This document shows, in pieces, positions 28,434 to 32,485 of a DNA stretch of 64,000 bases. The stretch covers positions 1 through 64,000 of IMG/VR virus record IMGVR_UViG_3300004180_000001. One strand, 5' to 3'. The stretch comes from a virus. The notes beneath the pieces were generated by a model, which saw only the letters and a program-made list of their open reading frames with translations, had not been told where the DNA came from and made no database searches. Numbering within the stretch: position 1 is the stretch's first letter; each line of letters begins with the position of its first letter. Made by a program: the position numbers and the translations under genes.

Positions 28434-29072
28434 TTATTTTAAGACTGAAAAGTGATCGTTAAGAGCCTTAACTTTGCGGCCCCATTGTTCTTCCTGATCC
28501 AACTCCATGGTTAACAGGAACCGGTTGTTAATGTCATTCTCCCTGCAAAACGTCTTCAATAATTTTTTGAACGCTGAATAATCACCCAGGGGGTTGCCTG
28601 CGCAAGCCCCTGGGACACTAGACAGAATTAAATACGTCGTCGACAGCAACGCGCCGTAAGTCCTCATGCACGGCCTTATCTCCGTGGCGTCTGCCAGCTT
28701 AACCAGGGATCGGCGGATCTGTATCATGGCGACATGCGGCGCCACTACTGCAGGTAGCCTTAAGAACAGGACGACGTGTGTTTCATAGATCAGGGCGCTA
28801 ATGCCAACATTGCAGTCGTCAGCTATTTCATCCCGACTCAGCACGAGTTCGCGGGTGAATAGTTTAGCGACGTCTGTGAACAGGCCTCTGAGCAGCGCAT
28901 TAATGTGCTTAACTCGACCTTCTTTATCCAGATCGGAAAAAGCCTTGTCATCCAGCTGCTCGGCCAGCGCAGACGGGCGGACATACGGCCTGAAAAACGG
29001 CACCACGGCCATGTAATTGAGTACCGCCACAGACTCGAAAGGCCGTTTGTGTACTACCGATAGTTTAACCAT
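28434..29072 (-). CDS. hypothetical protein
   Basis: Encodes 212 residues. ATG 29072 is chosen because it overlaps the dihydrofolate reductase stop by 8 bases and has GGGAT upstream. The composition is helical and hydrophobic in parts (IYETHVVLFLRLPAVVAPHV). No family recognised. Neighbours are a hypothetical gene and folA. Confidence 0.6.
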   Translation of the reverse strand: MVKLSVVHKRPFESVAVLNYMAVVPFFRPYVRPSALAEQLDDKAFSDLDKEGRVKHINALLRGLFTDVAKLFTRELVLSRDEIADDCNVGISALIYETHVVLFLRLPAVVAPHVAMIQIRRSLVKLADATEIRPCMRTYGALLSTTYLILSSVPGACAGNPLGDYSAFKKLLKTFCRENDINNRFLLTMELDQEEQWGRKVKALNDHFSVLK

Positions 29073-29556
29073 GTGATCTATCCCAAGTTTCGTAAACAAC
29101 CCCGTTAGATTTTTCCGACTGGGTTAAATACCAACCTTCGTCAGGGATGTTGATGTGCCTTGCATTCTTATATAAGTACGGCTTCACCAGTTCCGGGGCA
29201 ATGCGCGTAATGTAAAGCCGGTCAGCATAGTCGAATCCGTATTCAAATATGCGCACGCCGCCAATCAGGAAACATTGAGCGAAGCCTTGTCTTCGGCACC
29301 ACTGCACGGCCTGGCCGGGGTTTATGAAGTGCATAATGCCAGGCGTGCTGACTATATGCCTGCTCACGACAATGTTGGTACGGTTTGGCAAATGAGGCAC
29401 GCCGAGAGACCTATATGTGTCCCGACCCATGACAACGGCGTTGCCTGTGGTTAGTTTTTTAAACCGGATCAGGTCCTCGCGGATATGCCACGGTAATTTT
29501 CCGTCAGCTCCGATAAGTCCTCCTGGGCCGACGGCCATAATGACGTTAAGTTTCAT
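29065..29556 (-). CDS. folA: dihydrofolate reductase
   Basis: Encodes 163 residues, normal for the family. Motifs seen: MAVGPGGLIGADGKLPW (substrate and NADPH binding, Pro-Trp), IREDLIRFKKLT (Asp of the active site), GRDTYRSL and FLIGG. It reduces dihydrofolate to tetrahydrofolate with NADPH and regenerates the cofactor oxidised by thymidylate synthase, encoded two genes upstream. Together they support dTMP supply for phage DNA. Confidence 0.95.
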   Translation of the reverse strand: MKLNVIMAVGPGGLIGADGKLPWHIREDLIRFKKLTTGNAVVMGRDTYRSLGVPHLPNRTNIVVSRHIVSTPGIMHFINPGQAVQWCRRQGFAQCFLIGGVRIFEYGFDYADRLYITRIAPELVKPYLYKNARHINIPDEGWYLTQSEKSNGVVYETWDRSHG

Positions 29557-29796: not shown

Positions 29797-30057
29797 TTAG
29801 TGACATGCTGCCGCCTTCATGGGCAAATTTGAACTGAATTGCCCACACCAGGAATCGGCGCTGTTCTTTACGACAGGGTAGATCCACCAGGCAGGGCTAT
29901 TCGCCATTGTCTGAATGTCAACACTGGAGAGGTCTTCGCCAGAGAACATCACAGGGTGCGGTGTCGGGGGGTTTACCCGGCACTCTCCGATAGCTCCGCC
30001 TGCAAGCTCTTGGAAGTGTTTACAATTACGGCAAGTTATTAAAATATTTTTGCTCAT
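29797..30057 (-). CDS. Cys4 zinc-binding-like small protein
   Basis: Encodes 86 residues. Four Cys are spaced CRNC...C...C (CRNCKHF at 9-15, GECRVNPP near 25-32, WCGQF near 70-74). This C-x-x-C-K-H-F ... C-R-x-N-P-P ... W-C-G pattern is one I know from small uncharacterised phage and bacterial proteins, probably zinc-binding. It overlaps thyA by 4 bases. Confidence 0.65.
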
Positions 30058-30833
30058 ACCGCCACCTCCGCCTTAATGCTTGGGTCAGGGTTGTAGTCGA
30101 CAATTTCAAAATCGTCTATGGTGTAGTCGAACAGGGAAGCGGCTTTCCGTAGGCGTAACCTTGGCAAGGCCTTAGGCTGCCTTTGCAGTTGTTCGTGGGC
30201 CTGATTTATGTGATTGATGTACAGGTGGGTATCCCCTCCGGTCCAAATAAAGTCGCCCACTTCAAGGTCTGCCTGCTGCGCAAACATGTGCGTCAGTATG
30301 GCGTAGCTGGCTATGTTGTAGGGAACCCCTAGAAAGGTGTCACAGCTGCGCTGGTATAGTTGGCAGGAAAGTTTTCCATCATGGACGTAGAACTGAAACA
30401 GGCAATGGCAGGGTGGTAGCTTAGCCTTGCCAACATCTGAGGGATTCCATGCGGTGACAAGGATACGGCGGCTGTTCGGGTTGTTTTTTATGGTATCCAA
30501 GGCTTCTGAAATTTGATCGATATGGCTACCCCAAGACCTCCACTGCTTGCCGTACACTGGGCCTAAATCGCCGTTTTCGTCAGCCCACTCGTCCCAAATA
30601 GTAACGCCGTTTTCCTGAAGGTACTTGGCGTTGGTATCGCCTTTGAGGAACCACAACAATTCATGGATAATCGACTTGGTATGCAACCTCTTCGTCGTCA
30701 TCAGAGGCAACCCCTCCTGTAGGTCGAACCGCATTTGATGGCCGAATTTTGATAGCGTGCCGGTGCCGGTTCTGTCGCCTTTAACCTTGCCGCTGTCCAG
30801 GAGTTCTTGAAGTAAGTTTAAATATTGCTGCAT
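30054..30833 (-). CDS. thyA: thymidylate synthase
   Basis: Encodes 259 residues, typical for ThyA. It holds DRTGTGT (phosphate), [14 protein letters not shown], the catalytic Cys in [29 protein letters not shown] and [10 protein letters not shown]. It converts dUMP to dTMP with methylene-tetrahydrofolate. dUTPase (supplying dUMP) and dihydrofolate reductase are encoded within 3 kb, so the pathway is contiguous. Confidence 0.97.
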
Positions 30834-30858: not shown

Positions 30859-31263
30859 TTATACGCACGGCCCTTTAACGCAAGAAATCAGGTAGCACCC
30901 AGAAATTCCTTCAAAATGTGCCACAGCACTGTGGCCGCTCAGAATATAGGCGGCATGTGAAACTGTTGTTCGAACAGGCTCATCGATAAAATCTTTTTTC
31001 AGTAGCACCTCACTGCCGACTGGGTACTTAGCGTTGAAATCGTCGCACTGTTTTTGCACACTATATTTTTCAAAAGCGGTTATTCGCTTTCCTAAAATTT
31101 CAGAGTATTGCCACATGACGTCGTTCTGTTCTTTCAAGAGCTCCTGCTCGTCAGTCTCTAGCTCTTCAAACAGTGGGTTATACCCAATGAAGTCGCTAAG
31201 TTTAGTGGCTTTTATGTCGAGTTCAGCCTTTTCATCTACTACACGTTGTTGGTATGGTTGCAT
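30859..31263 (-). CDS. Tad1/Acb2-type hairpin protein, putative anti-defence nucleotide sponge
   Basis: Encodes 134 residues. Residues 1-65 ([20 protein letters not shown] ... [20 protein letters not shown]) form two helices with the pattern of the hairpin shared by Acb2 and Tad1, phage proteins that bind cyclic nucleotide signals of CBASS or Thoeris defence. Residues 66-134 make a second, beta-type domain ([16 protein letters not shown]). A two-domain layout is closer to Tad1 than to the shorter Acb2. It lies between thyA and a winged-helix-like gene. Assignment is by recalled family pattern; the ligand cannot be read from sequence. Confidence 0.6.
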
Positions 31264-31526
31264 TTTGATTTACCTGCTTCTGTTAATTTGTAAATGGTTG
31301 AGAAGTCTTTTCCACACCGGATTGTAATAAGCCCGGCTTCAGCAAGGCGGTGCATTACTTTACCTCCAGCTAAAGCTAAACCTTGTGCGGACCTATTGTC
31401 ATGTGCGTAGCCGTGCTTGGGCTTTGGATACAACGTCTGACCGACATCCGAGGGTCTGGACTCTAGCGTACCGCCTGCAGATTTTATTAGGTCCAAGGCC
31501 CTTTTATCATTGTCAGTCAATTTCAT
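31239..31526 (-). CDS. winged-helix-like DNA-binding protein
   Basis: Encodes 95 residues from ATG 31526, overlapping the previous gene; the frame is open to 31658 but that part lies inside the neighbour. MKLTDNDKRALDLIKSAGGT, then GGKVMHRLAEAGLITI and a short wing (STIYKLTEAGK), look like a small winged-helix fold. It could be a regulator or DNA mimic. It overlaps the Tad1-like gene by 25 bases. Confidence 0.55.
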   Translation of the reverse strand: MKLTDNDKRALDLIKSAGGTLESRPSDVGQTLYPKPKHGYAHDNRSAQGLALAGGKVMHRLAEAGLITIRCGKDFSTIYKLTEAGKSKCNHTNNV

Positions 31527-31815
31527 ACTTCTTGTAGTCCTGATCTCCAGTTTCAATGTGCTCAAGATTTCCGTCCTTAGCGGTTCTGAACATACCTTTC
31601 GGTAGGAATACTCGTTTGAACTGGCCGTGCCACTTCCCGTAATTAGTTGGCGTGCCATCAGAAAACTTTCCAGGACCGCAGGCCGAGCAAAGTTTCTTGC
31701 CTGCGCGGTCCTCTATACCGTCCCATGTGTATATTTCGGGAATGTCTCTTGTGTGGTAAGGCGTCAGTGCTGTGTTATCGCAGCACCCGCAAACTTCGCA
31801 TTGAAACAGACTCAT
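31513..31815 (-). CDS. rubredoxin-like zinc protein
   Basis: Encodes 100 residues. Cys pairs CEVCGC (6-11) and LCSACGPGK (near 42-50) flank a short loop, followed by GKWHGQFKRV. I know this layout from small phage proteins of unknown role, probably one structural zinc. It overlaps its neighbours on both sides. Confidence 0.65.
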   Translation of the reverse strand: MSLFQCEVCGCCDNTALTPYHTRDIPEIYTWDGIEDRAGKKLCSACGPGKFSDGTPTNYGKWHGQFKRVFLPKGMFRTAKDGNLEHIETGDQDYKKYEID

Positions 31816-32036
31816 GAAATACCTCCAACCGGATGCTGGTCCAGGGAATTTACAATTCGCCTGTCCACTGTGTAAGACACAGGAACGAAGTGTTCGTCAG
31901 TGCTGTGCTCTTTTGCCAACACAGCCACAGCCCTGGTTTCAGCCTGAATAACGCCTTCGTCATGTTCCAGGCGAAGTTCTTTCAGGCACTTGCCGAATTT
32001 GTTGTAAAAATTGATAACGTAATCTCCGGTTTTCAT
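31812..32036 (-). CDS. small hypothetical protein
   Basis: Encodes 74 residues, ATG overlapping the dUTPase stop by 1 base. It is an alpha/beta protein of mixed charge (YNKFGKCLKELRLEHDEGVI) with a likely strand-rich C-terminus (FVPVSYTVDRRIVN). Unknown. Confidence 0.6.
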   Translation of the reverse strand: MKTGDYVINFYNKFGKCLKELRLEHDEGVIQAETRAVAVLAKEHSTDEHFVPVSYTVDRRIVNSLDQHPVGGIS

Positions 32037-32485
32037 TACTGTTTTCCAGTCGATCCGAAGCCGCCTTCCCCGCGTTCCGTCGTTTCTGAAAATTCCTCGA
32101 CGACTTTCCAGTTAACGCGGGCGATCGGCATGAACAGGATCTGGGCCACCCGGTCGCCGGGGTGTATGACATAAACATCATTGCCATCGTTACAGGCGAT
32201 GAACCCAACTTCTCCCAGGTAATTGCAGTCTATGACGCCAATGCCGTTGCCTGGTCTAATAGAGTCCTTCAAGGCCAGGCCGCTGCGACCGGCGATAATG
32301 CCTACCAAATTAGGGTCTTTAATGTGAATCTTAATGCCGGTTGAGACAACAATATTTTTGCCAGGGTAGACCGATACCGGCATATCCAACCTGGCTACCA
32401 GATCCATCCCCGCATCGCCGGGGTTTTTATATTCTGGCAGCACGGCGTCAGGGTGGGTTTTTATAATTTCGACTTCGTAGTTCAT
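32036..32485 (-). CDS. dut: dUTPase
   Basis: Encodes 149 residues, typical for trimeric dUTPases. All five motifs are present: DAGMDL (near 24-29), GRSGLALK (near 66-73), GVIDCNYLGEVG (near 84-95), GDRVAQILF (near 108-116) and RGEGGFGSTGK (near 138-148). It hydrolyses dUTP to dUMP and PPi, keeping uracil out of DNA and feeding thymidylate synthase. Confidence 0.97.
   Translation of the reverse strand: MNYEVEIIKTHPDAVLPEYKNPGDAGMDLVARLDMPVSVYPGKNIVVSTGIKIHIKDPNLVGIIAGRSGLALKDSIRPGNGIGVIDCNYLGEVGFIACNDGNDVYVIHPGDRVAQILFMPIARVNWKVVEEFSETTERGEGGFGSTGKQ

Follow-up and report, generated by a model that had tools for sequence, protein, structure and literature searches.

A phage protein encoded beside thyA joins a PF21825 helical hairpin to a Tudor/SH3-like barrel and has a plausible role in counter-defence

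The analyzed window comprises 64,000 nucleotides of a 66.8-kb IMG/VR virus record (IMGVR_UViG_3300004180_000001, positions 1 to 64,000). This virus encodes a 1,999-aa tape-measure protein and is therefore likely a long-tailed phage. The gene under study is an intact minus-strand ORF, from ATG through stop, that codes for 134 residues. The gene and its surroundings include the following features:

30859..31263, minus strand: 134-aa two-domain protein (PF21825 hairpin plus Tudor/SH3-like barrel), from the ORF list, Pfam and an AlphaFold2 model (pLDDT 96.1)
31072..31263, minus strand: helical hairpin, Pfam PF21825 (crAss001_48), residues 1-64, from Pfam, an alignment of 69 relatives and AlphaFold2
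30877..31059, minus strand: five-strand small barrel, phrog_9165-like and Tudor/SH3-like, residues 69-129, from PHROG, a 30-row alignment, a PDB profile and a fold search
31273..31275, minus strand: AGG motif resembling a ribosome-binding site, about 10 nt 5' of the ATG of the 134-aa gene, from sequence
30054..30833, minus strand: thyA, directly downstream of the 134-aa gene
31239..31658, minus strand: 139-aa upstream ORF, overlapping the start of the 134-aa gene by 25 bp
32036..32485, minus strand: dUTPase-like ORF, upstream of the 134-aa gene, recognized from sequence
29065..29556, minus strand: DHFR-like ORF, downstream of the 134-aa gene, recognized from sequence

The original prediction had placed the gene next to thyA, and indeed the two minus-strand genes are separated by a gap of 25 bp, with the 134-aa gene upstream. 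For the overlapping 139-aa ORF, neither Pfam nor PHROG gave a match; the sequence of its C-terminal half suggests a winged-helix-like domain. Other minus-strand ORFs nearby presumably encode a DNA polymerase and a helicase, as recognized from their sequences. No close DNA relative of the gene region was found in the phage collection searched.

The AlphaFold2 model of the full 134-aa monomer (pLDDT 96) consists of two helices followed by five strands. The helices of the hairpin comprise residues 3-28 and 37-63, and the hairpin modeled alone reaches a pLDDT of 97.6; in the model of the entire protein, the second helix spans residues 37-79 and is continuous into the five-strand barrel. Residues 3-62 match positions 2-60 of the 61 positions of PF21825 with an E-value of 1.2e-20 and a score of 73.6 bits, so that the protein passes the curated cut-off of this HMM (24.8 bits) with near-full coverage. 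Seven residues, R7, E11, L22, F25, Q46, L57 and R60, are invariant across 69 PF21825 sequences, and all of them are present in the 134-aa protein; the conserved polar set of the family is formed by R7, E11, Q46 and R60 together with Y53. The nearest relatives of the hairpin are 69-75% identical to it. Fold searches with the hairpin returned generic coiled-coil hairpins, with no informative relative among the matches listed, and searches of PDB sequences with PF21825 profiles gave chance matches only. Thus, the proposal that the first 65 residues form the hairpin of Acb2 and Tad1 held as far as the presence of a helical hairpin is concerned, which both the HMM and the AlphaFold2 model place in residues 1-64, and failed for the family, which is PF21825.

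The separate beta domain that had been proposed to follow the hairpin was observed at residues ~69-129 of the same model, and it has relatives of its own. The family phrog_9165 matches residues 76-127 (E-value 8.1e-8) over positions 14-65, that is, most of its 70-aa model, and a 30-row alignment of barrel relatives shows the strongly conserved core LSGHSAV...G.SGCY. As a stand-alone phage protein, the barrel is common (53 IMG/VR loci). The barrel profile also matches the C-terminal tail of PDB entry 3g87 with an E-value of 1.6e-7. This tail (residues 337-393) is a barrel of the phrog_9165 type attached to a bacterial malonyl-CoA transacylase; therefore, the phage domain exists in cellular enzymes too. 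In a fold search, Tudor-like chains were matched with Z-scores of 6-7, a modest likeness to the Tudor/SH3 fold. Folds of this kind often bind protein or nucleic acid.

Relatives were found both of the hairpin alone and of the C-terminal domain alone. Because each half has relatives on its own, the hairpin and the barrel are two independent modules. For their joint alignment we used a smaller sequence set, in which both halves were aligned correctly. A fusion of PF21825 to a phrog_9165-type barrel was detected neither in the PF21825 loci and the 53 barrel loci nor in the phage records and bacterial contigs searched; the bacterial genome contigs contained few relatives, and the barrel fusion was absent from them. 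PADLOC and NCBIfam gave no useful match, and a tblastn search of phages with a consensus hairpin gave no hit, probably owing to the low-complexity filter. Each half thus belongs to a described family, and their combination is new among the sequences searched.

The Acb2/Tad1 hairpin is described by the family PF24729, with a curated HMM cut-off of 27 bits. No match to it was found in the 134-aa protein at E-values up to 10, nor anywhere in its genome, whereas T4 Acb2 (Vs.4), SBSphiJ7 Tad1 and the PF24729 protein of locus L006, used as positive controls, were all recognized. In hhalign comparisons, 91 PF21825 hairpins were matched to alignments of Acb2, Acb2-like and Tad1 proteins with probabilities of 0.2-1.3%; the positive controls gave 95% for the combined Acb2-type alignment (PF24729) against Tad1 and 82% for two Acb2-type groups against each other. 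From the PDB, the PF24729 profile retrieved the solved chains of Acb2 and Tad1, and the PF21825 profiles retrieved none of them. Chains of Acb2 or Tad1 were absent among the 50 matches listed in the fold searches with the hairpin and the barrel (Foldseek, VIA), but may occur lower in these lists. The expected Tad1-like beta domain proved to be the Tudor/SH3-like barrel, for which the hhalign probability against Tad1 is 0.8%. Membership in the Acb2/Tad1 family is thus unsupported, since the PF24729 match is absent, the very outcome that the original prediction had named as its refutation, and the sensitive profile comparison found nothing while the controls worked, and we rejected it.

Comparison of the PF21825 neighborhoods in other phages revealed a variable company. 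In the IMG/VR loci, the hairpin either makes up the entire protein (~63-70 aa) or forms the C-terminal end of proteins with varied small domains, gp49/PF13876 being the domain in several. Associations with known families of signal-trapping proteins were of several kinds: (i) fusions of PF21825 to the Tad2-like domain PF11195, one in Vibrio phage 1.205.O and another, identified by Pfam, in Bacteroides phage BS162P1, with a similar tblastn match at 93% coverage in BS-TP1; (ii) a single protein, L184:1279-1740, that carries PF21825 and PF24729 hairpins as separate domains; (iii) a PF24729 gene followed by a PF21825 gene with a 4-bp stop/start overlap, found in L006, L111, L117, L118 and other loci; and (iv) overlaps that involve Tad2 genes. 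The last group includes L073, where a PF21825 gene overlaps a gene for an N-terminal domain (N-domain) joined to Tad2, and L015:5001-5949, where three small genes overlap in the order PF21825, gp49/PF13876 and N-domain-Tad2. The parts of the L015 series are fused in other combinations in other viruses. One N-domain precedes PF21825 in the fusion proteins of L053 and L081 and precedes Tad2 in those of L015 and L073; since the same domain is joined to either, the PF21825 and Tad2 C-terminal parts look interchangeable. In Tenacibaculum phage Gundel_1 (L335:1187-2326), PF24729, Tad2-like and PF21825 genes are consecutive; all three are annotated as hypothetical or DUF2829 and form a candidate counter-defence cassette. 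The crAss-like phage ctcc615 has PF24729 and PF21825 within 1.3 kb of each other, beside a dUTPase. In T4-like and T5-like phages, PF21825 is found beside rIIB/denB, nrd or exonuclease genes. The upstream overlapping neighbor of PF21825 in a T5-like phage, pVp-1_0049, was considered as a sponge and rejected, as it is a basic protein.

A related arrangement was observed for PF24729 itself: the proteins of L124:1048-1725 and L139:1144-1749 combine a RyR domain (PF02026) with a hairpin of the Acb2/Tad1 type, and N-terminal sequences like theirs occur in L130, L132, L135 and L168. Phage RyR-domain proteins have recently been reported to degrade or sequester the cADPR signals of Thoeris (PMC13232231). 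The RyR-hairpin fusions would fit the pattern of a hairpin joined to a signal-handling head.

To quantify the association, 88 PF21825-bearing records (3.26 Mb) were scanned for PF24729 and PF11195. Of the eight matches found, six are no more than 1 kb from PF21825 or share a protein with it. In tests that count related phages as independent and include three named phage records picked by similarity rank, so that the p-values are optimistic, these 6 of 8 compare with 6% expected near PF21825 (p ~1e-6; 2e-4 when the fusion and one near-duplicate are left out), and PF21825 is present in 13 of 80 PF24729-like loci (9 distinct) versus 0 of 80 thyA-centered loci (p 0.003), the control loci covering twice the sequence. 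The hairpin is not rare in phages, since 3 of 50 thyA-bearing records contain it. Clustering of small accessory genes could account for part of the association signal.

The repeated fusion of PF21825 to signal-trapping proteins, or its position beside them, makes a counter-defence role of the 134-aa protein plausible, and the idea of signal trapping gains indirect support because PF21825 is fused to, or overlaps with, Tad2-like and Acb2/Tad1-hairpin proteins in several unrelated phages. The reading that we favor, tentatively and at somewhat less than even confidence, is as follows. PF21825 would be a mobile hairpin module joined to, or co-translated with, many small accessory proteins, known immune-signal sponges among them. 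The hairpin may self-assemble and thereby multimerize the barrel, and the Tudor/SH3-like barrel may serve as the head that binds a ligand or target. The assembly would then act as an early accessory counter-defence protein, most plausibly by sequestering, in the manner of Tad2 and Acb2, an immune signal derived from nucleotides. The conserved polar residues of the hairpin also agree with this reading. Several considerations count against it: most PF21825 proteins lack a sponge neighbor (8 sponge-family matches in 88 records), the family adjoins genes of other kinds in T4-like and T5-like phages, the genome of the 134-aa protein has no PF24729 match, barrels of the Tudor/SH3 type often bind other proteins or nucleic acid, and the link could reflect shared accessory regions of small genes rather than shared function.

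Nearly as likely is that PF21825 is a general hairpin for protein-protein docking or dimerization with no particular link to immunity. Here it would tether the barrel, whose role would be to modify a protein of the host or of the phage, for instance during early takeover or in the metabolism of nucleotides. We rank this explanation so close because PF21825 also adjoins rIIB/denB, nrd and exonuclease genes; its contexts vary further to recombination genes, it tails many unrelated small domains including gp49/PF13876 or stands alone, its fold is generic, and the 134-aa gene itself has thyA on one side and a dUTPase-like gene on the other. Against this explanation, PF21825 is repeatedly fused to, or shares overlapping operons with, members of three sponge-related families, beyond what is seen in the thyA control.

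Another explanation locates the function in the barrel, a small Tudor/SH3 domain that would bind DNA, RNA or peptides, and treats the hairpin as a recent tail of small consequence. The abundance of stand-alone barrels in phages and their strongly conserved core agree with it, but the hairpin shows no decay, being as highly conserved as its identity to the nearest relatives indicates, and its helix passes without a break into the barrel in the AlphaFold2 model; we therefore consider this explanation unlikely. Least probable of all is a true Acb2/Tad1-type sponge so diverged that sequence similarity has eroded, for although the hairpins are equal in overall size, polar residues lie near the open end, and Acb2/Tad1 hairpins are found in the genomic company of PF21825, the PF24729 match is absent, the hhalign probability is at most 1.3% against 95% for the PF24729-Tad1 control, PF21825 profiles find no Acb2 or Tad1 chain in the PDB whereas the PF24729 profile finds them, the two hairpin families are separate domains within one protein (L184), and the beta domain is unrelated to that of Tad1 and lies on the opposite side of the hairpin.

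To return to the counter-defence reading, a broader form of it would make PF21825 a general swappable assembly module of sponges, with the barrel as an undescribed sponge or inhibitor head, and hence a new counter-defence class built of interchangeable parts; of this broader form we are doubtful. The PF21825 domain is widespread among phages, and neither PF21825 and PF24729 by accession nor crAss001_48 by name was mentioned in the literature searched. The hypothesis that phages build signal sponges from a self-assembling hairpin and exchangeable ligand-binding heads is testable because PF21825 is repeatedly fused to Tad2 and to the Acb2/Tad1 hairpin. If it is true, many hypothetical phage proteins with a C-terminal PF21825 hairpin would become counter-defence candidates.

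With Acb2 and Tad1 (PF24729), the 134-aa protein has in common a helical hairpin of similar size in a small phage protein; none of the nucleotide-contact residues of Acb2, however, can be placed on it, and the order of domains is reversed relative to Tad1, where an N-terminal four-strand sheet precedes a C-terminal two-helix hairpin (PMC12043709). The phrog_9165 proteins and the tail of 3g87 match residues 69-129 in sequence but lack the PF21825 hairpin that the 134-aa protein possesses. With the PF21825 family it shares the invariant residues, whereas in that family the hairpin is usually alone or C-terminal, and here it is N-terminal to a Tudor-like barrel. The fusions in Vibrio phage 1.205.O and BS162P1 differ in that their C-terminal domain is Tad2-like (PF11195, former DUF2829), a family for which Pfam gave no match in the 134-aa protein, but their layout, with the second domain C-terminal to PF21825, is the same as that of the 134-aa protein.
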